A stretch of 64,000 bases of DNA, from the NCBI RefSeq assembly GCF_900452395.1, contig NZ_UGNV01000001.1:1-64000 (forward strand), written 5' to 3'. Shown here piece after piece: positions 39,455 to 64,000 of this stretch. This DNA comes from Legionella beliardensis. GTDB taxonomy: Bacteria; Pseudomonadota; Gammaproteobacteria; Legionellales; Legionellaceae. A program made the position numbers and the translations under genes. A model generated the notes under the pieces. That model was given only the letters and a program-made list of their open reading frames with translations, ran no database searches and was not told the origin of the DNA. Numbering within the stretch: position 1 is the first letter of the stretch; each line of letters starts with the position of its first letter.

Positions 39455-39530
39455 TCCCCGGTAGCTCAGTCGGTAGAGCGGATGACTGTTAATCATTAGG
39501 TCGGCGGTTCGAGCCCGTCCCGGGGAGCCA
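39455..39530 (+). tRNA. tRNA-Asn(GTT)
   Basis: Cloverleaf of 76 nt with encoded CCA. The acceptor TCCCCGG pairs with CCGGGGA, the D-arm has AGCTCAGTCGGTAGAGC, the anticodon loop is CTGTTAA with anticodon GTT, and the T-arm has GGTTCGAGCCC. Its 3' half is the integration site of the island that follows. Confidence 0.98.
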
Positions 39531-39533
39531 TAT
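39489..39533 (+). repeat. attL: 45-bp direct repeat in tRNA-Asn 3' end
   Basis: The 45 bp from the anticodon stem to three bases past CCA are identical to 52250-52294. Beyond it the two sites keep partial similarity (TATGGCTT...AAAAT). The intact tRNA is at this end. This marks the left boundary of a tRNA-Asn genomic island of about 12.8 kb. Confidence 0.96.
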
Positions 39534-39575
39534 CTCATATGGCTTCTATGAAAATACCTTCAAGTTTTAAATTTT

Positions 39576-39597: not shown

Positions 39598-39798
39598 TTT
39601 GATGGATCTTTCTAAGAAAACTTTTCTCGACAGTATTCTTTTATGGCCTCAAATAAGCTAACAGATATATCATCGTAAGCGCTCCAGGAACCTTATCTTT
39701 TAGTATTTTTATCCTCCGCAGAAGTGTATTTAAAAAGATATATCTGTATAATTTGTCCCAATATAAATAATGATTAAATATTGCACTGGAGTTTAGTA

Positions 39799-39987
39799 AT
39801 GCACAATATAGCTTGGCTTGAGTCTCTAGCCACAAAAACTGATTATGATATTGACATCAATGAGATTTTAAAAAATCAATCTTTAGATGTACAAAATGCA
39901 TATTATTCTAATAATCAAACCGTTCTTAAAGCATTGCTAGGTGATGAGGAAAGGCTTGCTAATAAGAATACTATTTTTCATTGTTAA
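39799..39987 (+). CDS. Split-borosin precursor peptide (putative)
   Basis: A 62-aa peptide encoded directly before a borosin-type N-methyltransferase. ATG 39799 has a TGGAG ribosome binding site seven bases upstream; the longer frame from TTG 39781 has none. Residues about 1-50 are helical and fit a borosin-binding domain: LKNQSLDVQNAYYSNNQTVLKALLGDEERLA splits into helices ending in a G-D-x-x-x-L pattern like that of known split-borosin precursors. The short tail NKNTIFHC would be the core that is methylated on its backbone. The core and its modified residues are inferred. Confidence 0.75.
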   Translation: MHNIAWLESLATKTDYDIDINEILKNQSLDVQNAYYSNNQTVLKALLGDEERLANKNTIFHC

Positions 39988-40005
39988 AGATGCTTTGTTT
40001 ATTTT

Positions 40006-40779
40006 ATGAAAAAATCATCACTAACGGTGGTAGGTACTGGTATTAAATTTTTATCTCAAATGACATTAGAAGCAAAAGTATATATTGAAAAGTCGGATAA
40101 GGTATTATATTTAGTAAATGATCCTGCGCTTAAGCAATGGATTAATCAAGCTAATAAAAACAGTGAGTCCCTTGATGATCTATATTTCAAACATCCTCAA
40201 AGACTAGATTCTTACACGGCTATCACTGACTATATACTTTCTCATTTGATTGATTCAAAACACATTTGCGTAGCATTATATGGGCATCCGACTGTATTTG
40301 CTAAGCCTGCATTAGATGCAGTCCTAATTGCTATCGCGCAAGGATATGATGCAAAAATACTGCCTGGTATTTCTGCAGAAGATTGTTTATTTGCAGATTT
40401 ATTAATTGACCCTGGAACATGTGGGTGTCAGTCATTTGAAGCAACGGATTTTCTTTTACATCGCCGAAAATTTGACCCTAATAGCCATCTTATTTTGTGG
40501 CAGCCTGATGTAATAGGAATTCAAGATCACGAGAAGCCTAAAGATACTGTAGGGTTACATCACTTACGCGCATATCTCACAGAATTTTATCCTTCCTATC
40601 ACGATGTTATTGTCTATGAGGCTGCACAATATCCAGGACTTAAGCCAAATGTATTGACAATACCATTACAGCAATTACCCGATGCTATTCTTTCATCTAC
40701 CTGTACATTGTATATAAAACCAGCTGGCAAAACTGAGTGCGATTATGAATTTGTAAGAAGATTAAATATAACTCTGTAA
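40006..40779 (+). CDS. Borosin-type peptide backbone alpha-N-methyltransferase
   Basis: A 257-aa SAM enzyme of the tetrapyrrole-methylase fold that closely follows the split borosin enzymes such as SonM of Shewanella. It has the N-terminal SVVGTG-type loop (LTVVGTGIKFLSQMTLEAK), CVALYGHPTVFAKPALDA, LPGISAEDCLFADLLIDPGTCG and CQSFEATDFL. The central and C-terminal parts (LILWQPDVIG, YHDVIVYEAAQYPG, CTLYIKPAGK) also match that family. Such enzymes methylate backbone amides of a separate precursor peptide. It begins 18 bases after the precursor gene and is followed 25 bases later by an MFS gene. A plain corrin/porphyrin methylase is unlikely given the peptide context. Confidence 0.88.
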   Translation: MKKSSLTVVGTGIKFLSQMTLEAKVYIEKSDKVLYLVNDPALKQWINQANKNSESLDDLYFKHPQRLDSYTAITDYILSHLIDSKHICVALYGHPTVFAKPALDAVLIAIAQGYDAKILPGISAEDCLFADLLIDPGTCGCQSFEATDFLLHRRKFDPNSHLILWQPDVIGIQDHEKPKDTVGLHHLRAYLTEFYPSYHDVIVYEAAQYPGLKPNVLTIPLQQLPDAILSSTCTLYIKPAGKTECDYEFVRRLNITL

Positions 40780-40804
40780 GAAATAAAAAATACTAAGGAA
40801 AGTC

Positions 40805-42043
40805 ATGATTAAATTATTCAAATCAGTAGGACAAACCTATTATTCTAATTACCGAGGTGTTCCAAGCGCATGCTGGATAGATATTTTTTTTAATTTATTA
40901 AATGCAATGTCAGTTGGTGTTTGTTTTTTTCTATCGTTATATTTTGTAGATGAATTGCATTTTAATATGATAATAGTTGGATTACTTATGTCTAGCTATG
41001 GAATAGGGACAGTAGTTGGTGGAATTGTATCTGGTAAATCATGTGATAGATACTTACCAAGAAAATTAACCATACTCAGTTTGATTTTACAATGCGTCGC
41101 TTTCTTTTCTCTCGCTTGGTTTCATACCTTTGAGTGGTTAATTACAATATTATTTATATTAGGATTTTCAAATTATAGTTTTAAAACAGCAAATAATGTA
41201 TCGATGTTGAGTCATTGTTATGAAGAGAAACGAATACGTCTTAAAGCAATTAATATTTCACATGCAGCTTCAAATTTAGGATTAGGTATTTCAGGAATTG
41301 TTGTGGGCTTGATGGCCTCATATGGCTATACAAGTATTTTTTATTTGGCAAGTTCAATATTAATTTTTTCAGCAATTTATCTGATTTTCTTTCATAAATC
41401 ATTCATGCAATCACCAAAAGATGGCTCTCAGGGAAAATTTCAAAATGGTTTGAATTCAAACATTCCAAAAAAAAAAATTTTAGCCTTAGCATTACTAGCG
41501 ACTTTTTTTGTGGGAATGATTATTGCTCAACTGGGCTCCACTTATCCTGTATATGTAAAAGATGCCTTCCCTGATCTAGCTACAAAAGCAGTAAGTATTT
41601 TATTTATCTTAGATACCATCATCATTGTTTTATTTCAGACGCCACTATCAAATTACTATGGTCATTTTAATACTGTTTTGATTATGGGTTTAGGCGCATT
41701 TTTAATGGGCTTAGGGATGTTTATTTTAACCCTTTCGTCAACCTTTGCATTGGCCATGATATCCTGCTTCATTTGGACGACAGGAGAAATGTTGTTTATT
41801 CCAACAGTACAGTTATTGTGTTATGAAAATGGCAACAAATTAAAAAAAGGGCAGAGTATGGGAATGTTCCAGTCAACCTATGCAATTAGTACGGTTGTTG
41901 GTCCAACAATTGGCGGATTCATGTATGTCAAAATTGGAAGTAACTCAATGTGGTATTTAAGTCTCATTATCGGCGTGGTGTGTTTAATTTTCTGTATATC
42001 TCTCTCAAGAGATACAAACAAATCCGTCCTTGTATTGCGATAG
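40805..42043 (+). CDS. MFS transporter, likely exporter of the borosin product
   Basis: A 412-aa membrane protein with about 12 hydrophobic segments and the MFS loop motif GIVSGKSCDRYLPRK after TM2 (G-x-x-x-D-R-x-x-R-K type). There is a cytoplasmic central loop near residues 200-225. A good ribosome binding site, AAGGAAAG, precedes the ATG. The position right after the methyltransferase and on the same strand suggests export of the modified peptide. The substrate is inferred from context only; a drug-efflux role cannot be excluded. Confidence 0.8.
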   Translation: MIKLFKSVGQTYYSNYRGVPSACWIDIFFNLLNAMSVGVCFFLSLYFVDELHFNMIIVGLLMSSYGIGTVVGGIVSGKSCDRYLPRKLTILSLILQCVAFFSLAWFHTFEWLITILFILGFSNYSFKTANNVSMLSHCYEEKRIRLKAINISHAASNLGLGISGIVVGLMASYGYTSIFYLASSILIFSAIYLIFFHKSFMQSPKDGSQGKFQNGLNSNIPKKKILALALLATFFVGMIIAQLGSTYPVYVKDAFPDLATKAVSILFILDTIIIVLFQTPLSNYYGHFNTVLIMGLGAFLMGLGMFILTLSSTFALAMISCFIWTTGEMLFIPTVQLLCYENGNKLKKGQSMGMFQSTYAISTVVGPTIGGFMYVKIGSNSMWYLSLIIGVVCLIFCISLSRDTNKSVLVLR

Positions 42044-42078: not shown

Positions 42079-43419
42079 CTATTTTCGATTAATGCTCACG
42101 CATCCACGCAAGAATGGTGCGTCACTTGAAAATTCCGCGCCCGGCTTTTTGTATTTTTTAGGAATAGACGTAAATCGTTTGTCTATTTTAATAATCTCAT
42201 CTGTCATGCGGACAACGCCATATCTATCTGGCTTGCAGTGATAATAGGTAAATTCAACATGCTTTGCGATTTCTCCTAAAATCGTGTCGCTGCATTTAGC
42301 CTTATCTTTTGATAATTCCTCAGAAAAAATACGCATAATATTTTCTAGTTCACGCAGCTCCAGAAGCATATTAGTTACTTCGCGAGATTTAGGTGAAAAA
42401 ATATGTGTAGAAGGATTTTGCAGCGAGTAGTATATTGGCAATTTATCTTTTTCAAATATGAAATGAGAGGGCCGCATGACTGTAGGAAAATATTTCTTCA
42501 AACCATAGGACCCTGTATAAGCATTTTGAATATCTCCTAAAGGAAGAGCGTCTTCATTTAGCGCAGGAACAAAGCCAGGGGCTGCGCCAATTGCAGTTGC
42601 AAAAAGATGTCTTGCGGTATCAGCCAAATAAGGATTTGGTTTTAAATTTCTCTTTTTTTGAATCATGGAGAATGTCATATCGTAATAGACGCGGTTTCTT
42701 TCATATTCATAATGCTTCCATGCAAGTTCATGTAAATAATTTTTTAACGTTATCCATGAACTTTCGGCGTGTAATTTTGTTACCCATTTTTCAGAAAAAT
42801 ACATAACGCAACAGCGCCAATTAGATTTTGCCGTAATTTCCTTAAATATATGCCAATGATCATAAAGTGATTTAGGCGTAGAACTTTTTATATTTAAATC
42901 TCGTTGAAGAGTAGAGTGATGACTTGTTGAGCCAATATTAGGCAACATAAAGACAGAGCGCGCGCCTGCTGTAGAAGATAAAATACCATTTGGTGCATAT
43001 GTACGATGATATTTGATACTAAGGATTGCAGAAAAAGGAAAAAACATGCCTGGTGTATAAACAAGCCAAGGTATCGTAATTCCTTCCTTTTTAAGATCAA
43101 TGAAGAGTTCTAATTGCTTGTCAAGTACCATGCCGAGTGGTGCATTGTTTATACTATAGCTAAGATTTTTATATATATCTTTAGGGACATCACTATCTGT
43201 TAATCGATAAAAACTACCATCTTGTTTAGGAAAGAGCGAACTTTGTGTATCAGCTTCTATAGCTCCATAAGGATAGTAAGCTAAATAGATTGGAAATGAT
43301 TTATCGGGAGATAAATTATCAACATGTTTTGTAAACAACGGTTCAATTTTTGCAACACGGTCACGTACATCATCCCAGCAAACTTTAACTAAACCTTGTA
43401 TATCATCTATATCCATCAT
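42079..43419 (-). CDS. Unknown protein facing the borosin cassette
   Basis: I do not recognise this 446-aa protein. No signal peptide or membrane segment is seen. The sequence is rich in aromatics and has a conserved-looking block AAPGFVPALNEDALPLGDIQNAY near the middle and FLRGCVSI close to the end. The start is ATG 43419, where AGGATAGGA lies just upstream; TTG 43434 is the longer alternative. It is convergent with the MFS gene at a 35-bp gap that holds a weak hairpin (GAGTGATCAACTC). Whether it belongs to the borosin pathway is unknown. Confidence 0.6.
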   Translation of the reverse strand: MMDIDDIQGLVKVCWDDVRDRVAKIEPLFTKHVDNLSPDKSFPIYLAYYPYGAIEADTQSSLFPKQDGSFYRLTDSDVPKDIYKNLSYSINNAPLGMVLDKQLELFIDLKKEGITIPWLVYTPGMFFPFSAILSIKYHRTYAPNGILSSTAGARSVFMLPNIGSTSHHSTLQRDLNIKSSTPKSLYDHWHIFKEITAKSNWRCCVMYFSEKWVTKLHAESSWITLKNYLHELAWKHYEYERNRVYYDMTFSMIQKKRNLKPNPYLADTARHLFATAIGAAPGFVPALNEDALPLGDIQNAYTGSYGLKKYFPTVMRPSHFIFEKDKLPIYYSLQNPSTHIFSPKSREVTNMLLELRELENIMRIFSEELSKDKAKCSDTILGEIAKHVEFTYYHCKPDRYGVVRMTDEIIKIDKRFTSIPKKYKKPGAEFSSDAPFLRGCVSINRK

Positions 43420-43593
43420 TATCCTATCCTGCAAACTATTTACACAATTTTTTTATCATATAAAAAATACATAAATATTTTAATATATATAAAGTCGCGA
43501 AGATTATCTTCTACTATCTAATGTTAATCAATGATGTAATGCACCTTCTTTAATGAACCAGAATACATTTGTAAATAATTAGGAGTATGAGAT

Positions 43594-43733
43594 ATGGAAA
43601 GGGATTTACCTAAACCAGAAAAAAAGAACTAAGATTGATTTTAACATTATCGCGGAAAGTAAAGCATGAATTAAAAATATTAGCTGCTGTTGATAATAAA
43701 TCAACTGGAAATACCAACCAGCCTATTTTTTAA
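43594..43733 (+). pseudogene. Frameshifted ribbon-helix-helix protein remnant
   Basis: ATG 43594 has an AGGAG ribosome binding site and encodes MERDLPKPEKK. The frame is then lost at a run of seven A (43619-43625) and hits TAA. In the shifted frame it continues as ELRLILTLSRKVKHELKILAAVD, which reads like the N-terminus of small plasmid ribbon-helix-helix DNA-binding proteins. It stops early at 43733, without the usual C-terminal helix. It is probably a decayed antitoxin or partition-type gene. Confidence 0.6.
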
Positions 43734-43752
43734 TTTTTTTAGGATAAGTAAT

Positions 43753-44139
43753 ATGAAAGAAAATAAAAAATATAGTTCCCACCATTCTGAATTTATTTCA
43801 ACTAATCATAAAAAAAATTCAAAAAAAACTAAAAAGGTTAAGAAACATGTTCCCAAATTTTTAAAATGGCTTAAAAAGCGTATAGAGTCTGGAAATAGAA
43901 AATTCGCTCTAGATTCACAGGAGCTAATAATTACTAAGCCATCCCATGCTAATCCAAATATTCTTTTTATTTTACCTGAAGTTTTGGAACAATATGATAA
44001 TTATTCAGGAATATCTGCTAAGTTAATGCAATTAGAGCTTAAGAAAAAGTTGATGATAACCTTTGATTACACTATTGTCAGAAATAAAAGCATTATTGAG
44101 GTTTTTCCCATTAATTTTTTGGATTTGAATTCTGTTTAA
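43753..44139 (+). CDS. Small basic protein, weakly like TraI_2 relaxase C-terminus
   Basis: A 128-aa protein. ATG 43753 is preceded by AGGATAAG, so I prefer it to the longer frame from 43690. The first 35 residues are very lysine-rich. The rest (FLKWLKKRIESGNRKFA ... NPNILFILPEVLEQY) resembles the small C-terminal domain that follows the TraI_2 domain in MobH-type relaxases, which typically reads FWxWLxxGLxxGxL then LLLVSP. That likeness is weak and from memory. It may be a fragment of a mobilisation gene or an independent DNA-binding protein. Confidence 0.5.
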   Translation: MKENKKYSSHHSEFISTNHKKNSKKTKKVKKHVPKFLKWLKKRIESGNRKFALDSQELIITKPSHANPNILFILPEVLEQYDNYSGISAKLMQLELKKKLMITFDYTIVRNKSIIEVFPINFLDLNSV

Positions 44140-44848: not shown

Positions 44849-45700
44849 ATGCGTACCCAGTCATTGAGACAATTCGCTAATCAACAAATTAAATTAGATA
44901 GACAAGGTAAATACCTTTATCGCAAGCATCGTGCTTATGTCATTCATAAAATGATTGATGATTTATTTGCTATTCGGCAAGTACCACCTTCTTGGCAAGC
45001 TCTAAACACGCAACAGATTACCGAACTAGTTTCTTATTGGAAAAAGCGCAAGATTAATCCGGTTACAATCATGCGCTATATGACCATCATTCGTCGTTTC
45101 TTGACCATGTGCGAGTCTCCTGTTGGCAATATTGATAACAAAGCGCTTAACTTAATACGTCCTATTAAACGCAAAAAGCGCAAGTTAATTGTTAAAGCAG
45201 ATATTTGGCAATCAATTACCGATCCATACGCTCGAATCATTATGGCGTTGCAAGTAGAATTTGGTTTAACCTTTCGTGAAGCCATTACTCTAAAACCTGC
45301 CATTCATATACAAGATAATCAACTCTGGATTACTAGAGACATTGCTTTTAATTCCAGAGATCGAACCATCCCTATTCGAACAATAACTCAACGTTCCCTG
45401 TTAAATTTTTTTAACCAGTTACTTGGCAGACTTGATAATCTTATAAACATCATTCCTTATGAAGAAATCCGCTTAAGATGGCGTAGTGCTTTAGCCAAAC
45501 ATCGCCTATCCAGCGCTAAAAGCTGGCGTTATTTGTATGCGCAGCAAATGTATACAAGCTTGCTGACTGAGTATGGTAACTATAAAACTTACTTGTTGCT
45601 ACAAGATGAGATGGGAATAAAATCGCGTAACACGTTATGGTTGTATCTTAAAGATGTAAAATTGGCTGGGACAACTGGGACACTTGGGACAGCGCATTAG
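44849..45700 (+). CDS. Integrase-like protein (phage integrase N-terminal/Integrase_1 type)
   Basis: A 283-aa protein with the SAM-like N-terminal half (SLRQFANQQIKLDRQGKYLYRKHRAYVIHKM, then PVTIMRYMTIIRRFL) and a catalytic-like half (VEFGLTFREAITLKP). These resemble integrases of Legionella plasmids and integrative elements. The arginine in GLTFREA would match the first catalytic Arg of tyrosine recombinases. The later H-x-x-R and Tyr are not clear, although SSAKSWRYLYAQQMY may correspond. It may have a recombinase or accessory role. The last codons encode a GT-rich tail made by three 9-bp repeats (GGGACA units) that also form part of the iteron-like array. Confidence 0.75.
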   Translation: MRTQSLRQFANQQIKLDRQGKYLYRKHRAYVIHKMIDDLFAIRQVPPSWQALNTQQITELVSYWKKRKINPVTIMRYMTIIRRFLTMCESPVGNIDNKALNLIRPIKRKKRKLIVKADIWQSITDPYARIIMALQVEFGLTFREAITLKPAIHIQDNQLWITRDIAFNSRDRTIPIRTITQRSLLNFFNQLLGRLDNLINIIPYEEIRLRWRSALAKHRLSSAKSWRYLYAQQMYTSLLTEYGNYKTYLLLQDEMGIKSRNTLWLYLKDVKLAGTTGTLGTAH

Positions 45701-45779: not shown

Positions 45780-47530
45780 CTAGATTTTATCAGTGAATTT
45801 ATAGACTCTTGGTGTACCTACCCCTCTAATCCTAGGTTTATGAGTAGGTAATCCATCAGGCGATAATCTTAACCAGCCTTCATTTAGCAATACCTGAATA
45901 ACCATTTTAGGGTCAAAGCCAAGGCATAACTCTTTTTTAAAGACTTCCGTCAAAACCATATAAACACGATACCCTTCATCGTCAGTTGCATAAAATCCTG
46001 CTCGATTATGCAAATGCTCATTATTTGGCGTTCTAACATTATCAAAGCGACTAGCACCGTGGGATTCAAAAAAAGATCTGACTTGCGCGAGTATGGCCCT
46101 ATCTTCTCGGTTACCTTCTCTGCCAAACGCATCTAACCAAGCTCTAAAGCAGACTTGGACCGCATAGAATGATTGCCCTTCTTCCCAGCCTGTCAGTCCA
46201 TATTGAGTTGCTAATTCACCTGCAACAGCAACGAGCGCAAAACGCCGAGCTACTCTCATAATTTGGCCAGTTGAGCCAGGCATAGCAACACTGCTAGTAA
46301 ATTCCGCTAATTTATTTGTTATGGTACTTGCAATCGTTTGCCGATTAGCTACTACTTTTCTTAACCATTCCATACCAACAGCACCATAGTACTGGCTAGC
46401 ATACTCTTTTAAAGACAAAGCCATGGTAACAGGGCTAAGCTGATTATGAATACATTCGTAAATACCCATATGAAAGCCAGCGTCTGCCTCAATATCCGCT
46501 AATCGAATTTCCTGCCCGACATTCGTTCGCTGCCCAATTCTTGCCATCAAAGACATGAGCGATTCTTCACCAGCAGAAAGAAAAAGCAATGTCCATTGAG
46601 AAACGGGTTTGGCCATTCCTTGACGATTAGCGCGTGTTTTTCCTTGACCATTAGCAAGCAAATAAGTAGCTTCTCCTGCTTCTCTAGGATCCATCTGACT
46701 GAGCTCATCTAAAATTAGTAGCCCATCATATGTAGTGCAGCTAACCCCTCAAGCCCATTTGCTGTACTTCGCCATAAGCGACAATAAGCTTGCGGATTAC
46801 CCCAAACTGAAGCAGCCACTTTTAAAACCGTACTTTTGCCGCAAGATGAAGCACCTCTAAAATGAAAGCCGCCAGAATCTTCACCAGCAATCGTTGCTAA
46901 GGTTGGTGCAAAGGCAGTGCTAATAGCAAAAACTAGTCGTGAATTTCTAGCAGATAACGCACCGATAGAATCTCGCCAATCTTCAACAGTACCTGATACT
47001 GACAGTGCCGACTCAATTGCATTATTATTTTGAAAAACAATTCTTTCTGACGAATTACCTATTGTTTGTGATGCAGTGATAAACGTTTCACCATACCAGC
47101 CTAGTTTATCTACACAGCGCGCTCTTGCTTCAACAGGACACACTTGTAAATAGATAGCCAGTAAATCTCGCGCAATTTTACTCGGTGAAATAGATAAGCC
47201 AAGGTTAGCTAGCTCGCGTCTCACTTCAGAAGAATCACCTTGCAGTAGCGATATTGGCATGGCCCATTGGTGTATCACACCGTCGTCATCTTGCCATTCC
47301 AATTGCCATTCCAATAAGCGGCCCCAATCACCACTTTTAGCATCTCGGGTTTTAGCAATGACATAAAGAGGTGAACAAATCCAGCGTGGTGCCATTGGGT
47401 TACCATCTTTATCTTTGCCAAGAAAAGAAATGCCTTTCTCTGTTAACTTAAAACAACCACCTGCATATTCATAAATGACAGGGAAATTACCCGCTTTATT
47501 TTTGATATTAATAATTTGATTTTGAGTCAT
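45780..47530 (-). pseudogene. DUF927-family helicase-like protein, frameshifted
   Basis: Two minus-strand frames read as one protein of about 580 aa. The first (47530 to 46715) carries the DUF927 start and Walker A RGASSCGKSTVLKVAAS and ends ALHMMGY. The second resumes in another frame near 46726 with DGLLILDELSQMDPREAGEATYLLANGQGK, the Walker B and following region. A single missing base joins them. DUF927 proteins are superfamily-III-like ATPases of integrative elements and satellite phages, probably acting in replication. The ATG 47530 has a GGAG ribosome binding site. Either a genuine recent mutation or an assembly error could cause the break. Confidence 0.85.
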
Positions 47531-49788: not shown

Positions 49789-50853
49789 TTAATCTTCTTT
49801 CGCAGATTCATTTAACTCAGCTTCAATTTCTTCAACTGTTGGTAAGCTGCCTTTCAAATCAGTGGGAATTGATTTTGATAAGGTATATTCTGAAACACCT
49901 ATTGGAGCACTAATGTTTCGCAGTGCGTATTCAGCTATAACCTTATTTTTTGATTTGCATAGCAAGATTCCAATCGTTTGGTTATCGCCAGGCTTTCGTA
50001 ATTGATCATCAACAGCTGCAAGATAAAAACCCAATTGCCCTGTATGTTCCGGTTTAAATTTTGTATTTTTCAATTCGATGACAACAAATGCTCGTAATTC
50101 GAGGTGGTAAAACAGTAGGTCAACAAAAAACTCTTGATCATCAAAAGTTAGAGGGACTTGAGAACCAACAAAGGCGAAACCTTGGCCGAGCTCAATAAGA
50201 AAATCACGAATATGGGTAATTAAAGCATTTTCAATATCGCGTTCATGAGCTTTGCCTTGAATAGTCAGAAAATCAAAATTATAGGGATCTTTTAATATTT
50301 CATTAGCTAAACCAGATTGTAATTCTGGTAAATGCTTGTGGTAATTGGAGGTTTTATTGCTGGCTATGGCTTGGCGCTCATACAATCCACTTTCGATCTG
50401 CATTTCAAGAACGGTTCGTGACCAACCATTTTTTATAGTTTGTTCAGCATACCATTCCCGCTTAGGTTCTTCTTTAACCATCTGCATTAAACGCACAATA
50501 TGTCCCCAAGGCAATTGCGAAACGGGCTGTTTCGTAAATTCAATATATGGATAAAGTTGGGCAAATCGTCGCATGTATTCAAGGTTTCTTTTAGAAAAAC
50601 CTTGCATTTCAGGGAATGCTTGTCGCATATCATGCGAGAATTGCTCAAGAAAATGCGACCCCCATTGATGGCTTTTTTGTTTCTCGATTAAATCAGTACC
50701 AAGCTCCCAATAGAATTTGATCAGCTCACTATTCGCAGCCAGTGCTGCACGAATTTGAGCTGTTTGTAATCGTGTTTTGATATCGGTTAAGAAATGTTTG
50801 TAATCTTGATTTAAACGTAATTCGTCATTTTGAACTTTAATTTCTTTACTCAT
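49789..50853 (-). CDS. DUF1016/YhcG family PD-(D/E)XK nuclease
   Basis: A 354-aa protein with the N-terminal DUF1016 domain (FYWELGTDLIEKQKSHQWGS, FSKRNLEYMRRFAQLYP, QLPWGHIVRLM) and a C-terminal nuclease domain. The nuclease core is EFFVDLLFYHLELRAFVVIELK, with the Asp and Glu-x-Lys of the PD-(D/E)XK fold. Family members occur in mobile islands and restriction or defence loci. Its start overlaps the integrase stop by eight bases, so the two are co-transcribed as integrase then cargo. Confidence 0.9.
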   Translation of the reverse strand: MSKEIKVQNDELRLNQDYKHFLTDIKTRLQTAQIRAALAANSELIKFYWELGTDLIEKQKSHQWGSHFLEQFSHDMRQAFPEMQGFSKRNLEYMRRFAQLYPYIEFTKQPVSQLPWGHIVRLMQMVKEEPKREWYAEQTIKNGWSRTVLEMQIESGLYERQAIASNKTSNYHKHLPELQSGLANEILKDPYNFDFLTIQGKAHERDIENALITHIRDFLIELGQGFAFVGSQVPLTFDDQEFFVDLLFYHLELRAFVVIELKNTKFKPEHTGQLGFYLAAVDDQLRKPGDNQTIGILLCKSKNKVIAEYALRNISAPIGVSEYTLSKSIPTDLKGSLPTVEEIEAELNESAKED

Positions 50854-52087
50854 GAACTGCTCCTTGTGGTTGGATTGCTATTAGTGTTGCGGATGGTTGG
50901 ACACCCATGCACTTTAAAAAATAATCTGTAATTTGTTGCATTGGTTTTCTTAACCGCTCAACATCGGTCACGATATATCCAGCAGTGATATCGCCGTTCA
51001 TTTTATGGTTCATCAAACGTTTTAAAGCATAAGCTGAGATATCCAGCCCCTCAGCAATGGTAATAAACGTTCGCCTTAAATCATGAACCGTAAAATGAAT
51101 CCCTGAGAGCTTGGTTACATTAGCCATTTGTTTACGTGGCTCAATAATATGACCTGCGGCTCCTGTGCCGGGGAAAACATACTCATTAATCCTCTTTTGG
51201 CTGCGTGATAATAGCAGCTCATAGAGGTAAGTAGAAAGAGGAAGGGTATGAGATTCGTGGTTTTTAGTATCAAGTATGGTTAATGTTTTAGCGTTGAGAT
51301 CAACTTGATCCCAGCGTAACGTGGCTGCTTCCTGACGGCGCAATCCTGTTAGTATTATTAACAATAAGTAATCTCGTAAAACTTCATTTTGTAGTTGTTG
51401 TACGCCAAGGTACCAAGCCGCCAATTCATGAGCTTTAATAAAACTTTGGCGACGCTCAACCCGATACCAGGCTCTGGTTTGGGATAGACGTTTTACCGGG
51501 TTTTCGGTAATCAATGATTTACCTTGTGTATCCTCATATTGACCGGCTGCAAAATTAAATAGGGCACGCAGTAGACGCATGGCTAAATTGGCATAAGCCT
51601 CGCCATGTACTTGCCCTAATTTTTTATGATGCTTTGCAACGTTATCTTTGGTGATGGCAAGAAAGGGTTTATTAATCCAGCCTGAAAATCCTGTGGCTAA
51701 TACCTTTTTGTAATTATAAAGGGTATTGTGTTTTAGAGATTTGCGAACTTGAATGTAATCATTAAACACATCATTTAATGTGATTTGGCGCATTTTTTCA
51801 GCGCGTTTTTCGGCAATTGGATCTATTCCAGTCGCAATTTGCCCGAGCAGCTTTTGAGCTTCTTTTCTTGCCATTTCTACTGTCAGCTCAGGATAACGAC
51901 CTAATGTAATGCGAGACAGTTTATTCTTTATCAGTTTTTCAACAAAAAAAGCCTTAGTTCCACCGGAGGTAACTCTGATACCAAATCCCTTCATAGCATC
52001 ATCATAATAGCGTTTTTGTGCCGTTCTTCCCTGAGTTGTTGAAACAGGCAAAGGTAGTTTATCAACAGCTGATTTTGTTATTTTCAT
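50846..52087 (-). CDS. Tyrosine recombinase, P4-type island integrase
   Basis: A 413-aa integrase that would recombine the island with tRNA-Asn. It has the N-terminal arm-binding domain (YYDDAMKGFGIRVTSGGTKAFFV, LGRYPELTVEMARKEA). The catalytic residues are visible: Arg in LTGLRRQEAATLRWDQVD, H-x-x-R in VHDLRRTFITIAE, His in LMNHKM and Tyr in AGYIV. The gene reads away from attR, with its promoter between the 22-bp subterminal repeat and the start. It is intact. Confidence 0.95.
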   Translation of the reverse strand: MKITKSAVDKLPLPVSTTQGRTAQKRYYDDAMKGFGIRVTSGGTKAFFVEKLIKNKLSRITLGRYPELTVEMARKEAQKLLGQIATGIDPIAEKRAEKMRQITLNDVFNDYIQVRKSLKHNTLYNYKKVLATGFSGWINKPFLAITKDNVAKHHKKLGQVHGEAYANLAMRLLRALFNFAAGQYEDTQGKSLITENPVKRLSQTRAWYRVERRQSFIKAHELAAWYLGVQQLQNEVLRDYLLLIILTGLRRQEAATLRWDQVDLNAKTLTILDTKNHESHTLPLSTYLYELLLSRSQKRINEYVFPGTGAAGHIIEPRKQMANVTKLSGIHFTVHDLRRTFITIAEGLDISAYALKRLMNHKMNGDITAGYIVTDVERLRKPMQQITDYFLKCMGVQPSATLIAIQPQGAVHE

Positions 52088-52125: not shown

Positions 52126-52249
52126 GAATGATTAAAACATAATAAAAGTAATTGTGCTATAAAAAAAGCCGATAGGCCTTATAAACAAAGGGGTATTGGG
52201 ATAATTTAAAAGTTGGTAAAAGTCATTAAAAGCCCTAATTTTATAACTT

Positions 52250-52294
52250 TTAATCATTAGGTCGGCGGTTCGAGCCCGTCCCGGGGAGCCATAT
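52250..52294 (+). repeat. attR: 45-bp tRNA-Asn 3' end copy
   Basis: Exact copy of the tRNA-Asn 3' portion at 39489-39533. The 5' half of the tRNA is absent, so it is an attachment-site remnant and not a gene. Confidence 0.96.
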
Positions 52295-52502
52295 TTAGTA
52301 TGGCTTTTATCAAAATTCAAATTTCTTTCTTATCTTTTTAGATACCCTTTAGGGAACCCGATTTTTCCCGTCACCTTAATTATTGTATAACTAGGTAAGT
52401 TCAAAATATTATCTACATAGACTTGTAGGTTGGGCCACTTGATCCAACAACTACTTATCAATTCCATAGCGCTTTCTACTAACGTAAAGTCTAACAACCA
52501 TT

Positions 52503-52691
52503 GTAGCCTGGGGGTAGGTCCAAAGGGCTGTATCCCAGGTTTTCATTTTACTTCCATCGCTTAACAAACCCTTAAAATTCCATCTGTGAAACATAGCTAT
52601 GTAACTTGCGCTAAAGCATGGCCTGGCCCTATTCCAGCCGGCTTAGAAGGTAAACCTGGGATACGGCCCTTAGGAGCTATTTCCAGGCTAC
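52503..52691. repeat. MITE-like palindromic element, copy 1
   Basis: 189 bp that start GTAGCCTGGGGG and end CCAGGCTAC. The ends are inverted copies of about 40 bp, sharing TATCCCAGGTTTTC and GGTAAACCTGGGATA. The interior is shared with copy 2 at 54391-54650. The two copies bracket hipBA. Nothing else is recognisable in 52295-52502. Confidence 0.85.
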
Positions 52692-52725: not shown

Positions 52726-52771
52726 TACCCTCGAATGCGGGTATAATTGATTTTACCCGCACTTGGGGGTA
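52726..52771 (+). promoter_or_regulatory. hipBA promoter with two HipB-type operators
   Basis: TACCC-N8-GGGTA occurs twice, at 52726-52743 and 52754-52771, 28 bp apart. The layout matches TATCC-N8-GGATA, the HipB operator of E. coli. The first copy overlaps a perfect -10 TATAAT at 52742-52747 and the second covers the predicted start. A further half-site GGGGGTA is near 52793. This implies repression by the HipB protein encoded just downstream. Confidence 0.85.
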
Positions 52772-52813
52772 TATTTAATATTATTGGCAATTGGGGGTAA
52801 AAAGAGGAAATTT

Positions 52814-53053
52814 ATGATCATTCGATCAGCAAAAGATTTGGCAGTATATTTAAATGACAAGCGCAAGCAACTCAAAATGAGTCAGTCTGAAGTTGCAGAT
52901 TTAGTAGGTTTAAAACAGGATACTATATCAAAATTTGAAAATAGTCCCGACAATAGTCGAGTTGATACCTTATTTAGGATATTGTCTGCCCTAAATTTAA
53001 ATATTAGTCTTGTTGAAAAAGGTCAAGAAACTGATGAAGAGATAGAATGGTAA
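52814..53053 (+). CDS. hipB: HipB-like antitoxin, XRE family
   Basis: A 79-aa helix-turn-helix protein that binds the upstream operators and neutralises HipA. The HTH is MSQSEVADLVGLKQDTISKFEN at about residues 24-45, and the C-terminal NLNISLVEKG strand is typical. ATG 52814 has an AGAGGAA ribosome binding site; the longer frame from 52763 would read through the operator. It overlaps hipA by seven bases, giving translational coupling of the pair. Confidence 0.9.
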   Translation: MIIRSAKDLAVYLNDKRKQLKMSQSEVADLVGLKQDTISKFENSPDNSRVDTLFRILSALNLNISLVEKGQETDEEIEW

Positions 53054-54363
53054 GGCGTAAATTATACATATTAATGAACAATGAGCTCGTGGGGGAGCTT
53101 ACCCAGGATAATGCAGGAGGTTTGGGTTTTTCCTATGTTACGGACTGGATTTCCAAGTCACATTCGCGACCAGTATCTTTATCGTTACCGTTAGTAAAGC
53201 AAAAGTTTTTAGGTGAAGTTGTTTATAACTTTTTTGATAATTTACTTCCTGATAATCCGCAGATAAGAGCCAGAATTCAAGCTCGTTTTCAGGCAAGATC
53301 ATCACGACCGTTTGATTTGTTGGCTTTAATTGGAAGTGATTGTGTTGGTGCAATACAAATTGTTGAACATATTCCTCAGGCGCAGCAGCTAAATATTGAA
53401 AGTCATGTGGTCAGTGAAGCCGAGATAGCTCATACTTTGCGTTCTTACCAAACTTCTCCACTAGGAATGAACAAAGAAGATGATGAGTTTAGAATATCCA
53501 TAGCTGGCGCTCAAGAAAAAACAGCTTTTTTATATTACCAAAATGAATGGCATAAACCATTAGGGCCTACACCAACAACTCACATATTCAAATTACCTGT
53601 TGGATATTTATCACATCAAGGAATTGATTTAAGTGAAAGTTGCGAAAATGAATACCTCTGTTTAATGCTAGCCAGCAAATTTGGTTTAGATGTTGCAAAA
53701 TCAGAAATCTTACAATTCGAAGATGAAAAAGTACTGGTTGTCGAAAGATTTGATAGAAAATGGAGTCGAGATAATCGTTATATACTCAGGTTGCCACAAG
53801 AAGACCTATGTCAATCATTAGGTTATTCCCCAAATTTAAAATATCAGTCAGATGGTGGCCCCGGTATTAAAGAAATTATGCAGCTACTTAATGGTTCACA
53901 GCGACCTCAAAAAGATAGAGATGAATTTTTCAAAGCACAGATTGTTTATTGGTGCCTTGGCGCTATTGATGCGCATGCCAAAAATTTCAGTATAAATCTA
54001 CAGCCACAAGGAGGTTACCAGTTAACTCCATTATATGACATCATTTCAGCCTACCCTATCGTGGAACAAAAACAGCTATCGTTTAAGAAATTGAAAATGG
54101 CCATGGCTTTATACGGCAAAAACAGTCATTATAAGGTTCACAGTATTCAAAAAAGACACTTTATTGAAACAGCAAAGAACGTCCAATATTCTAAAATTAA
54201 AGCAGTTCAGATTTTTGAACAAGTGATTGACCGTATTGATTCTGCTATCGATGAAGTCACAGCACAATTACCGAGCCACTTCCCAGAAAAAATTGCACAG
54301 CCAATCTTCAAAGGCATGAAGAATTTTAAAGAGCGAATGATATCCCTCTCAACTCTAAACTAA
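53047..54363 (+). CDS. hipA: HipA-like serine/threonine kinase toxin
   Basis: HipA kinases phosphorylate a tRNA synthetase and induce dormancy. The 438-aa product has the N-subdomain 1 with GGLGFSYVTDWI, and the self-phosphorylated Ser loop in FRISIAGAQEKTAFL near residue 150. It also has the catalytic IDAHAKNFSI near 307 and the metal-binding LTPLYDIISAYP. All key residues are present, so it appears active. It forms a type II toxin-antitoxin module with the upstream gene, just outside the tRNA-Asn island, between two MITE copies. Confidence 0.93.
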   Translation: MVRRKLYILMNNELVGELTQDNAGGLGFSYVTDWISKSHSRPVSLSLPLVKQKFLGEVVYNFFDNLLPDNPQIRARIQARFQARSSRPFDLLALIGSDCVGAIQIVEHIPQAQQLNIESHVVSEAEIAHTLRSYQTSPLGMNKEDDEFRISIAGAQEKTAFLYYQNEWHKPLGPTPTTHIFKLPVGYLSHQGIDLSESCENEYLCLMLASKFGLDVAKSEILQFEDEKVLVVERFDRKWSRDNRYILRLPQEDLCQSLGYSPNLKYQSDGGPGIKEIMQLLNGSQRPQKDRDEFFKAQIVYWCLGAIDAHAKNFSINLQPQGGYQLTPLYDIISAYPIVEQKQLSFKKLKMAMALYGKNSHYKVHSIQKRHFIETAKNVQYSKIKAVQIFEQVIDRIDSAIDEVTAQLPSHFPEKIAQPIFKGMKNFKERMISLSTLN

Positions 54364-54390: not shown

Positions 54391-54650
54391 GTAGCCTGGA
54401 AGTAGGCCAATAGGCCGTATCCCAGGTTTTCATTTTTCTTCCATAGCTTAACAACCCCCTAAAATTCCATCTGTTAAACATGGCTATGTAATTTGCGCTA
54501 AAGCATGGCCCTATTCCAGTTTTCATCGTTATGTTCAGAAGGGAGTATTGCAAGAAAAGTGGGATATGATGGAGTGCAAGGTGATTTTGGAGAATAGGCG
54601 TAGTGAAGGTAAACCTGGGATACGGCCTTTTGGGCCTACTCCCAAGCTAC
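54391..54650. repeat. MITE-like palindromic element, copy 2 with insertion
   Basis: Starts GTAGCCTGG and ends AAGCTACG-like sequence. Left and right parts match copy 1 at 52503-52691, but about 85 bp (roughly 54517-54600) are inserted between CCTATTCCAG and GGTAAACCTGGG. The inserted piece reads open in one frame and might be a gene fragment. The remaining 54651-54728 shows nothing. Confidence 0.8.
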
Positions 54651-61246: not shown

Positions 61247-62068
61247 CTAGTTATTAATTAAACCTGGAACAGAGAAGCATTGCTTATCTTGTAGGCGAAG
61301 GGCGGTAAGGCGCCCGCCCCATAGGCAACCGGTGTCTAAGGCGTAAATACGGGGATGAGGGCATTTTCCTTGTAAGGCAGCCCAATGGCCAAAAATAATA
61401 TCAGCGTCAATTTCCTTGCGCTTTGGCACAGAAAACCAAGGGATAAAATCGGGTGGTGCCTGTTTAATTGTGCCTTTATAATCTAACAATAACTCACCTT
61501 GATTGCCGCAAAAACGCATACGAGTCAAATAATTAGTAATAATTCGCCATCTGGCAAAGCCAGTCAGTTCAAGAGACCATTGATTGGGTAAATTTCCATA
61601 CATATTACTTAAGTATTCTTGATAATTCTCACCATGTAACACGGCTTCAAGCTCTTTTGCGCAGGCTTTAGCAGTCTCTAAATCCCATACTGGTGCTATG
61701 CCAGCATGGGTCATCACGATATTAAAGTTGCTGTCATAGTAAAGAAAGCGTTGTTTACGTAACCAATGACCTAATTCATCGCGATCGTCGGCTAGCAAAA
61801 TAGGTTGTAAGGTATCGTCTTTATTTTTCCGCTCAGCTTGGCCAAAGAGCCTATTTAATAAATGCAAATCATGATTACCAAGAGTAATATAAGGTTCAAT
61901 AGGTAAATTTTTAACAAAGCGTAGCACTTCTAAAGATTGTGGGCCTCGATTAACTAAATCGCCTACCAGCCAAAGCCTATCTTCCCGCTCATTAAAATGT
62001 AGACTATCTAATAAGCGTAATAAGGGTTCATAACAGCCTTGTATATCGCCAACGACATAATCAGCCAT
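61247..62068 (-). CDS. apaH: Diadenosine tetraphosphatase, symmetrical
   Basis: ApaH cleaves Ap4A to two ADP and can decap RNA. The 273-aa protein has the metallophosphatase motifs [36 protein letters not shown] and GHWAALQG. Length is normal. It overlaps the upstream TraI_2 gene by eight bases. In E. coli apaH is in the rsmA-apaG-apaH operon; here a TraI_2-domain gene lies between rsmA and apaH and no apaG is seen. Confidence 0.96.
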
Positions 62069-63422
62069 TATTAGTCATACCAGGGTTTAAATTAGGATTT
62101 AGGTTTGGGTCTTTCTTTTGCCATTGACCGGTAGCATTTAATACTTCAAGCGAATTTGTTGTCGTTTTTTGGTGGGGTGGCGTTAAATGGCTAGAAAAAT
62201 GAGCTAAGTGGATAAGTTCTATATCTGATATTGTATCTGACTTGCCAGTTTTAGGATTATGCAATTGGACGGTAGTAGGCAGGGCTATTGCATAGTTACC
62301 AAATACGACACCACTATGCATTTGTTGAGTATTGCTTTGCTCAAAGCGCGAAATCACATTACCATCTGAGCCTACTTGATGTAACTTTAAAGACAAAAAG
62401 CCATTTTGTACTGCTTGCCAATTTTTATATTCAGGGTGTTCGCGGACAAACCATTTAAAAATTTCAGGCGACATCAATAAACCGCCTGGAACCGTAAATA
62501 AAGGCGCTTTATTGATCATAATAATGCGTGATTCTAATGATTTAGTAAGCCACTGAATAAACTGAATGCCCATTTGCTGTTCTATATCGTTAACGGATTC
62601 TGGCACGGTGCCTGTAAACGTGCTTGCTCGCCCATAGCGATTTGTCTTTGTGTTAGCAAATTTTAAGTTTAATTGATTAAGGTAGCGCTGAATGGCAATG
62701 GCATCGGCACGAATTAATATAGCGCCTAATGTTCCTGCGGTATGTGGATCTTCATTAAGTAAGGCAAGCCAAACAGCTAAAACTTGCGCATCGGAGACAA
62801 TCCATGTAAAGCCACTCGTAGGCATTAAAGAACGCGCTAAGAGAATATTTAAACGCCGCCGTAGATCAATATCTGTTTCTTTTTGAAAACTATAACTATA
62901 ATGGCTGCCTACTGATACGAGGCTTTCTAATAAAGGATTCCATAATTTTAAAAACTGGCCATTATTGTCATAAAGCTCAACTAAATAATCAATTTGTAAT
63001 TTACCAATACCTTGTAATAGAGCAGCTGAAAACAAGGCATATTGCCAAAGTCTTTGTTCTTCTGAGTAATCTGAGTTTTCTTCGAGCAAAACAAATTTTT
63101 TAAATAAATTTAAAGCCGTTTCTGTACGATTGAGGGCATAATCCAGTAAACCACCAGCTTGTGAATAATAACTATTTGAGGTTTCAGGTAAGGTTTGTAC
63201 ATGATTAATGAGATTATGAATAATACTTAAACATAGACTATCAAAGCGTGCTTTTTCTAGAGAGCATGCTATACGTAGTTCCTGCAGAAGGACGGCTCTT
63301 TTTTCTTCAGCCAGAATATCCTCAGCAGGCAAGATTCGTGTTAAATCCTTTAACGGCTTTGATTGTCCTTTGCCTTTTTTACTATATCTATGAAACAAGT
63401 TAATCTCCAAAAAGCTAGCCAT
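62061..63422 (-). CDS. TraI_2/MobH-type HD domain protein (chromosomal)
   Basis: A 453-aa protein whose first ~330 residues resemble the TraI_2 domain of MobH relaxases: [50 protein letters not shown] and [13 protein letters not shown]. The usual HD metal motifs (HxxxPxxxxxHH and an HD) look degraded: Tyr and Gln occupy the SxxYYSQAG position and the expected HD reads QGIGK. This suggests a domesticated, possibly inactive relative. It lies between rsmA and apaH, overlapping apaH by eight bases, with no conjugation genes near. Its role in this operon is unknown. Confidence 0.75.
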
Positions 63423-63442
63423 AATTTATATTAATACCTTTA

Positions 63443-64000
63443 TTAGTTTAATTTTATTCCATTTGATAAGAAATTGGCTATTTTAATATAGTCTATTAGT
63501 TTAATTTGCTCTGGGCGGTGAGCCGCATTAATCGCCAAATCAGCTAACTCTTGGGCGCTAATAAGTGGCTTTAAATTATTAGCAAGTGTTTTACGGCGCA
63601 TTGAAAATGCTAATGCAACTAAATCTTGTAGTAGTTTAAGATTAACAGGCGGATAAGGAGAAACAGCATAAGGCGTTAACCTTACGACAGCCGAGTCAAC
63701 CTTAGGCTTAGGATAAAAAGCATCCGGTGGAACATTAAATAAATGGGTTACTTCACAATGATATTGAATCATTATACTTAAGCGGCCATAATCCTTGCTT
63801 CCCGGTTGTGCAGCTAAACGCTCAACCACTTCCTTCTGCAGCATAAAATGCATGTCTTTAATACTATTAACAAATGATAGTAGATGAAGGATTAGTGGTG
63901 TGGAAATATTGTAGGGTAAATTCCCCACTACACGTAAATTATTTCCCCAATTATGGTAGTTAATTGTGAGCGCATCAGCACCTATAATTTGTAGCCGGGA
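63443..64000 (-). CDS. rsmA: 16S rRNA dimethyladenosine transferase, 3' part
   Basis: RsmA (KsgA) dimethylates two adjacent adenosines near the 3' end of 16S rRNA. The visible 185 residues include the catalytic motif [14 protein letters not shown], then [23 protein letters not shown] and the C-terminal [14 protein letters not shown]. The frame stays open to base 64000, so the N-terminal SAM-binding part lies beyond the window. GTG 63928, where an isolated reading frame would begin, is inside motif IV and is not the start. Confidence 0.96.

Follow-up and report, generated by a model that had tools for sequence, protein, structure and literature searches.

Analysis of a 64,000-nucleotide stretch of the Legionella beliardensis genome (positions 1 to 64,000 of contig NZ_UGNV01000001.1, assembly GCF_900452395.1; hereafter the window) revealed a conserved, open-framed split-borosin cassette, in which a precursor peptide and its borosin-type backbone alpha-N-methyltransferase are encoded by separate genes. 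Judged from its genes, the cassette very probably makes and exports a short backbone-methylated peptide. A split-borosin cassette located on an integrative element in a tRNA-Asn gene is the best explanation for this locus, and we give it a probability of about 0.85. A first-pass annotation of the same DNA had proposed a cassette of three genes; precursor, enzyme and transporter check out, but a fourth gene, convergent and encoding a protein of 451 aa, had been missed. The genes of the cassette are as follows.

39799 to 39987, + strand: gene for the 62-aa precursor peptide; leader about residues 1-53, core tail about residues 54-62 (predicted boundary)
39958 to 39978, + strand: codons for the core motif ANKNTIF, residues 54-60; motif found in 39 of the 46 gathered precursors
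40006 to 40779, + strand: borosin-type peptide backbone alpha-N-methyltransferase, 257 aa; Y60, R66, Y70 and Y92 correspond to SonM Y58, R67, Y71 and Y93
40805 to 42043, + strand: major facilitator superfamily (MFS) transporter, 412 aa, putative exporter; PF07690, E 9e-39; a relative at the same position in 11 of the 11 closest loci
42079 to 43434, - strand: 451-aa partner protein (P451), family unassigned; start more likely at ATG 43419, downstream of AGGATAGG

The open reading frame (ORF) of the precursor extends from the ATG at 39799 to the TAA at 39985-39987 (62 codons), and GGAG is situated 7 bases 5' of the ATG. The frame contains a second possible start, TTG at 39781; the ATG at 39799 is taken as the start because it agrees with the ribosome site and with the relatives of the peptide. 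The gap to the ATG of the enzyme gene at 40006 amounts to 18 bases, and both the ribosome site and the spacing described in the first-pass annotation are thereby confirmed. No clear ribosome site was found in the region before ATG 40006 and, therefore, translation of the enzyme may be coupled to that of the precursor. The MFS gene, correctly named as the next one, begins 25 bases past the enzyme stop, and the P451 gene (451 codons) converges on it at a distance of 35 bases.

Comparison of the enzyme with all PDB sequences gave 25 distinct matches with expectation (E) values of 1.7e-48 to 1.9e-38, all of them borosin N-methyltransferases (dbOphM, OphMA, SonM and MroMA types); the next match was unrelated (E 0.65), and up to E 10 the matches included neither a corrin nor a porphyrin methylase. 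As judged from its sequence, the product of 40006-40779 is a borosin-type backbone N-methyltransferase. An identity as corrin or porphyrin methylase is rejected on the basis of this search, in which the grouping with such methylases, named in the first-pass annotation as evidence that would speak against a borosin, was not obtained. The Pfam model TP_methylase matches at E 8e-14, far more weakly than the borosin enzymes, and in NCBIfam YabN reached 52.5 bits (E 3.9e-14) for a cut-off of 525, and the precorrin-3B methylase model PRK05991 16.7 of 391. The motifs ALYGHPTVFA, GISAEDCLFADLLIDPG and QSFEA, for which a SonM type had been claimed, are present and correspond to ALYGHPGVFA, GISAEACLWADLGIDPG and QSFEA of SonM. 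In the alignment with SonM, the residues Y58, R67, Y71 and Y93, which were mutated in the SonM study according to the accessible part of PMC8429565, correspond to Y60, R66, Y70 and Y92 of the window enzyme; the SonM variant R67A is reported to be inactive. Where SonM has its loop from Y58 to R67, the window enzyme is three residues shorter. An alignment of 59 sequences besides SonM and dbOphM, which excludes matches of less than 200 aa or with stops and counts the window protein twice, shows conservation of SonM Y58, R67 and Y71 in 58 of 59 sequences each and of Y93 in 57 of 59. The 257-aa enzyme aligns over residues 2-255 to borosin enzymes and has no C-terminal extension; as it stops after the methyltransferase domain, it carries no fused core. 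The ratio of nonsynonymous to synonymous substitution rates (dN/dS) was 0.11-0.20 in all five pairs of relatives compared, which share sequences. Relatives of the enzyme (E<=1e-10) were found in 46 of 140 genomes of the family Legionellaceae (own genome included), at 81 places, a few of them fragments. Being common in the family, they demonstrate that the window cassette is not a lone find.

The precursor is conserved along with the enzyme. The group of closest enzymes comprises 11 loci (55-59% identity), and in all 11 a 62-aa peptide ending with ADRTTIF-x-[LI] is encoded directly upstream (in L012 counted from the inner ATG of a 69-aa frame), the corresponding end of the window version being ANKNTIFHC. 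Seven of these peptides were matched by the window peptide in tblastn at E 7e-4 or better, with E relative to the fetched loci only, and the other four were recognised by reading. Because 62-aa peptides with the same tail sit at the same place in all of the closest loci, the small ORF is not due to chance, and a spurious ORF is rejected on account of this conservation of place and tail. In total, 46 distinct upstream peptides were gathered, 44 from family genomes plus those of L001, an uncultured gammaproteobacterial relative from outside the family that also has a relative of the 451-aa protein, and of L119. Those from the family cover a portion of its 81 enzyme places; for several peptides, an inner ATG of a longer frame was chosen manually as start codon, and the upstream ORFs of L108 and L139 and, outside the family, of L002-L004 and L121-L126 were left out. 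Several groups can be distinguished among the gathered precursors, and their tails include ADRTTIFEL, SDTTKVVNF, ADMSRVVR, ADTVEVVEL, ANANKIVSI, PDSNKIVNI and SDMSHVIPYSDMTHVFP. Of the 46 precursors, 39 carry a motif [ASPTQY][DNH]x[STNV]x[VI][VIFA] within their last 30 residues, compared to 0.93 on average and at most 5 when the tails were shuffled 500 times; since the motif was formulated with the sequences in view and these are related, it serves as a description and not as a test. Eight of the 46 contain the motif twice, as expected of a substrate site. The conserved tail probably constitutes the core. ANKNTIFHC of the window is a deviating member of this set, and its His-Cys end, rightly considered unusual in the first-pass annotation, is not shared by any of the 45 others. 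Values of dN/dS for the precursor were 0.34-0.36 in three of five pairs, those with dS>=0.11. An AlphaFold2 (AF2) model obtained from two sequences (predicted local distance difference test, pLDDT, 68; predicted template modelling score, pTM, 0.47) places helices at residues 2-14, 20-25, 29-36, 40-47 and 50-55, followed by the tail; this resembles the five-helix bundle of SonA, described for residues 1-53 in the accessible part of PMC8429565, but is weak evidence of a SonA-type leader.

Relatives of P451 were detected in 52 of the 140 family genomes at 109 places; the matches L061 and L038 were dropped from the family set as a stop was met, and the alignment A2 consists of 31 hand-chosen sequences. 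A P451 relative is located within 5 kb of 72 of the 81 enzyme places, and in 71 of these 72 it lies on the opposite strand, 3' of the enzyme, and thus converges on it. The gap between enzyme and P451 is mostly 10-55 bases, about 580 bases or about 1.2-1.3 kb, with a few other values of up to 2.95 kb; in the loci read, a gap of about 580 bases corresponds to a GNAT-type gene and one of about 1.2-1.3 kb to an MFS gene. As the gaps vary in this way, the orientation outlasts insertion and loss of neighbours. MFS and convergent P451 genes follow the enzyme in all 11 closest loci, P451 being cut to about 90 matching residues in L044. Counted by genome, 45 members of the family harbour enzyme and P451, one the enzyme only (a fragment) and seven P451 only.

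Whether P451 was used alone or as a family, no credible match was obtained in Pfam, NCBIfam, PHROGs, PADLOC or PDB sequences, only scattered single-member or unrelated matches, and the family had no match in viral contigs. An AF2 model of P451 from two sequences reached a pLDDT of 32 and was not used. In 21 aligned sequences of the family, one of them from a distant branch, W20, E109, H399, D418, R420, F421 and C445 are invariant, among others. In the window, a 149-aa ORF (43690-44139, + strand) adjoins the partner gene; a 137-aa relative of this ORF (L097 8056-8469) adjoins an enzyme-less partner copy, the match of which contains one stop, elsewhere in the same genome.

The distant branch of the P451 family, with a length of about 420-430 aa, is part of the enzyme-less group and adjoins genes for an ATP-grasp-like protein, a ThiS-like protein ending with GG, ThiF, YcaO and TfuA (L100-L106). 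In five of the seven loci read, it has the same direction as the YcaO/TfuA set, in two it is convergent, and in five of the seven a POT-type transporter is in view. In the F-type transfer region of L. longbeachae pLLO (L140 3036-11818), such a distant relative of the 451-aa partner is found together with YcaO/TfuA genes between ParB and TraL; the ATP-grasp-like protein is annotated there as glutathione synthetase, and an oligopeptide:H+ symporter is present. Unlike the window cassette, this pLLO stretch has no annotated borosin methyltransferase and contains the genes for the ATP-grasp-like protein, ThiS, ThiF, YcaO and TfuA instead. In a figure legend in the accessible part of PMC3218107, YcaO/TfuA genes of Legionella F-type transfer regions are drawn as being of unknown function. 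The P451 family, found beside borosin as well as YcaO/TfuA genes, therefore accompanies two different peptide-modifying chemistries.

Beyond the family, an enzyme relative was found in 10 of 369 genomes of a class sample, eight of which are outside Legionellaceae. Two of these eight, G838 and G678 (enzymes of 52-55% identity), have a convergent P451, which in G838 occurs twice in tandem, and for the other six no P451 was found within about 6-7 kb. In a phylum sample, none of 397 other genomes had a P451 relative. In L119 (9018-11722; same class, other family), two tandem partner genes lie beside one enzyme. Eight plasmid records, all from Legionella, contain a P451 relative, and 20 records of plasmids of other bacteria, for example Bradyrhizobium and Streptomyces, contain an enzyme relative, none with more than 60% identity. 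On an L. israelensis plasmid, an MFS gene, a small hypothetical gene, the enzyme and the convergent partner are located between ParB and TraY/TraT/TraL. The own genome harbours further enzyme copies on a contig of 91,693 bases, near a lipoprotein-like gene (L048) that we take to be TraT; a stretch of this contig had no match in PLSDB. On the same contig (G000:C2; L006, L007, L048), a paralogous enzyme occurs twice at a distance of 71,237 bases, with 3,423 of 3,741 compared bases identical, due either to a real duplication or to an overlap from circular assembly; one partner copy there is broken. Legionellales are listed among the orders in which many plasmids contain gene clusters (34%) in the accessible part of PMC10434180, the available text of which does not contain the word borosin.

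The location of the cassette on a tRNA-Asn island, already suggested in the first-pass annotation, was confirmed, and the integrative element has a size of 12.8 kb. Its ends and its integrase are the following.

39455 to 39530, + strand: tRNA-Asn (GTT), attachment site of the element (ARAGORN)
39482 to 39555, + strand: left copy of a 74-bp direct repeat, att-like, which takes in the 3' end of the tRNA; exact 24-bp core
50846 to 52087, - strand: tyrosine integrase of the element (Arm-DNA-bind_3 and Phage_integrase)
52243 to 52316, + strand: right copy of the 74-bp direct repeat

The 3' end of the tRNA-Asn gene is repeated over 74 bp with 91% identity 12,761 bp downstream, and the tyrosine integrase with its arm-binding domain adjoins the right repeat. 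In G073 and G091, the closest relatives at the locus (83-84% identity), the two window repeats hit the same site and no other within the 14-15 kb read, as in an unoccupied relative; about 7-10 kb beyond this site, the sequence of the window's far right flank (61258-63993) is encountered. In G088, the same tRNA holds a related element (integrase region 79% and DUF927 region 68% identical) with other ORFs, in which neither enzyme nor partner was found. The DUF927 gene of the window element (45780-47530, - strand) is split into two ORFs, 46715-47530 and 45780-46694, and therefore looks broken; the related DUF927 region of G088 (L172 8916-10665) is likewise distributed over several ORFs. A YhcG/DUF1016 PDDEXK nuclease (49789-50853, - strand; PADLOC candidate family PDC-S02, E 2.4e-146) is encoded beside the integrase, and a 283-aa protein with weak phage-integrase-like matches only is encoded in the middle of the element (44849-45700, + strand). 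Just to the right of the element, at 52763-54363 (+ strand), a 96-aa ORF that on inspection by eye encodes a helix-turn-helix protein precedes a HipA-type protein with HipA domains; 104-nt repeats at 52520-52623 and 54407-54510, 90% alike and with similar stretches elsewhere in the genome, flank the HipA genes.

The results described above establish the anatomy of the genes, the family and the catalytic residues of the enzyme, the conservation of the precursor, the linkage and the ends of the element, and from them we infer a pathway of methylation at defined sites, cleavage and export in which the 451-aa protein would participate. Precursor and enzyme would be made together, and the helical leader would dock on the methyltransferase, presumably a dimer by analogy with SonM. 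The last residues of the precursor, ANKNTIFHC, would be threaded through the active site, and backbone amide nitrogens of the tail would be methylated with S-adenosylmethionine in the N-to-C direction, like in other borosins (accessible part of PMC8429565). By inference from SonA, for which the same part of that article gives methylation at residues 63 and 65, one or two methylations would probably be expected around T58-F60. The methylated tail would then be freed from the leader, a step in which the 451-aa protein may act, and leave the cell through the MFS transporter. As usual partner of the cassette, the convergent 451-aa protein would most likely act on the peptide, by release or tailoring, self-protection being the main alternative.

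The split-borosin interpretation of the first-pass annotation is supported by the separate precursor and enzyme, the catalytic residues, the conserved precursor and the transporter, and a number of observations weigh against the pathway outlined here. The tail motif is absent from 7 of the 46 precursors, and two close precursor pairs gave dN/dS values of 1.4-1.5 at a dS of 0.03, with too few changes to be read. The precursor model had no match in Foldseek, nor with VIA-align, and single and profile searches of the precursor against PDB gave unrelated matches only, none to SonA or LigA. Similarly, hhalign assigned a probability of 0.4% to the precursor profile against SonA, and 18 diverse precursors against three SonA/LigA-type sequences gave a collinear alignment of 47 columns with E 0.012 and a probability of 3.6%; two Streptomyces precursors, originating from the same enzyme query, weakly match LigA or SonA. 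With respect to the partner, 9 of the 81 enzyme places have no P451 within 5 kb, for eight of which no P451 match was found on that contig, and 35 of the 109 P451 places have no enzyme within 5 kb. In G030 and G046, which belong to one genus, partner and MFS genes are followed by a small precursor-like ORF (recognised by eye) in the absence of an intact enzyme; in G030 a weak enzyme-like fragment (E 2.6e-5, three stops) lies next door. We consider it highly improbable that the enzyme is a small-molecule methyltransferase of TP-methylase fold (corrin/porphyrin type) and the upstream ORF spurious or a regulatory leader, as the TP_methylase match and the weak matches to YabN and precorrin-3B methylase, both far under cut-off, are opposed by the borosin-only matches in PDB, by the retention of the residues studied in SonM and by upstream peptides that keep their place and tail. 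It is also very unlikely that the window cassette is a decaying relic. Such decay might be read from the split DUF927 gene on the same element, from the stops in some partner copies elsewhere in the genome and family and from the enzyme fragment of G030; in contrast, the frames of precursor, enzyme, transporter and partner are all open in the window, and the enzyme dN/dS is low in the five pairs of relatives.

For the role of P451, the YcaO-linked branch and the arrangement in G030 and G046 suggest that the protein deals with the peptide itself, which it would either finish or protect against. A self-protection or sensor protein that shields the producer from the N-methylated peptide and is separately promoted for expression without the operon would explain why, in 71 of the 72 linked places, P451 lies on the strand opposite to the enzyme and hence forms a transcription unit of its own, and why G030 and G046 have P451 but no intact methyltransferase; also, in the cases examined the cassettes are on mobile elements, as competition modules often are. 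However, the invariant E109, H399, D418, R420 and C445 in the 21 sequences suggest an enzyme, and the distant branch is in line with the ATP-grasp-like, ThiS, ThiF, YcaO and TfuA genes on pLLO and co-directional in 5 of 7 loci; we judge protection or sensing to be rather unlikely. We prefer a function in finishing the peptide, by release or further tailoring, to which we assign somewhat less than an even chance. More tentatively, the P451 family might represent a new peptide-maturation enzyme shared by borosins and a YcaO/TfuA pathway of Legionellaceae, in which it would carry out the last step, core release or closure, and would thereby mark out a novel line of natural products with N-methylated backbones that travels on tRNA elements and conjugative plasmids. 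The cassette might also produce a signal that serves, for instance, conjugation or element transfer, and not an antagonistic peptide; its position between ParB and TraY/TraT/TraL on the L. israelensis plasmid, that of the YcaO branch between ParB and TraL on pLLO and the POT-type oligopeptide transporter beside the partner in several variants point in this direction. Several copies are, however, on contigs of more than 3 Mb, i.e. chromosomes (G057, G098, G104 and G114), where transfer genes were not searched for, and no receptor or regulator was identified; a signal is distinctly improbable.

Among known systems, the cassette resembles SonM/SonA, the type IV split borosin of Shewanella oneidensis (accessible part of PMC8429565), in its discrete methyltransferase of about 260 aa, the adjoining discrete short precursor, the same four studied active-site residues and a C-terminal core, predicted in the window. 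It differs from SonM/SonA by a 62-aa precursor in which no homology to LigA/SonA is detectable, by the shorter loop between Y58 and R67 and the core motif ANKNTIF/ADRTTIF, and by the linked MFS transporter and 451-aa partner. Homology to the methyltransferase domain of the fungal OphMA/dbOphMA spans about 250 residues (E 1.7e-48). In these proteins the enzyme also carries core and clasp as a fusion, as stated in the accessible part of PMC8429565, whereas a separate gene encodes the substrate in the window. Split borosins of types V-X, according to the accessible parts of PMC11395268 and PMC11285071, are likewise bacterial with separate enzyme and precursor, and the cassette may belong to type IV or to one of these types. 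A search of open-access literature gave no article joining borosin and Legionella; the papers defining types V-X were outside that search and may list Legionella members. Split borosins as such are already known and enzyme relatives are present in 46 of 140 family genomes; with respect to the new pathway envisaged in the first-pass annotation, the branch, the core motif and the linked P451 family are new as far as searched. As one of many in the family, the cassette is ordinary; its unusual features are the short core motif, the linked partner of unassigned family and the location on mobile elements. The recurring companions, transporter and 451-aa partner, name concrete candidates for the steps after methylation, and it is suggested that one protein family may serve two unrelated peptide-modifying pathways.

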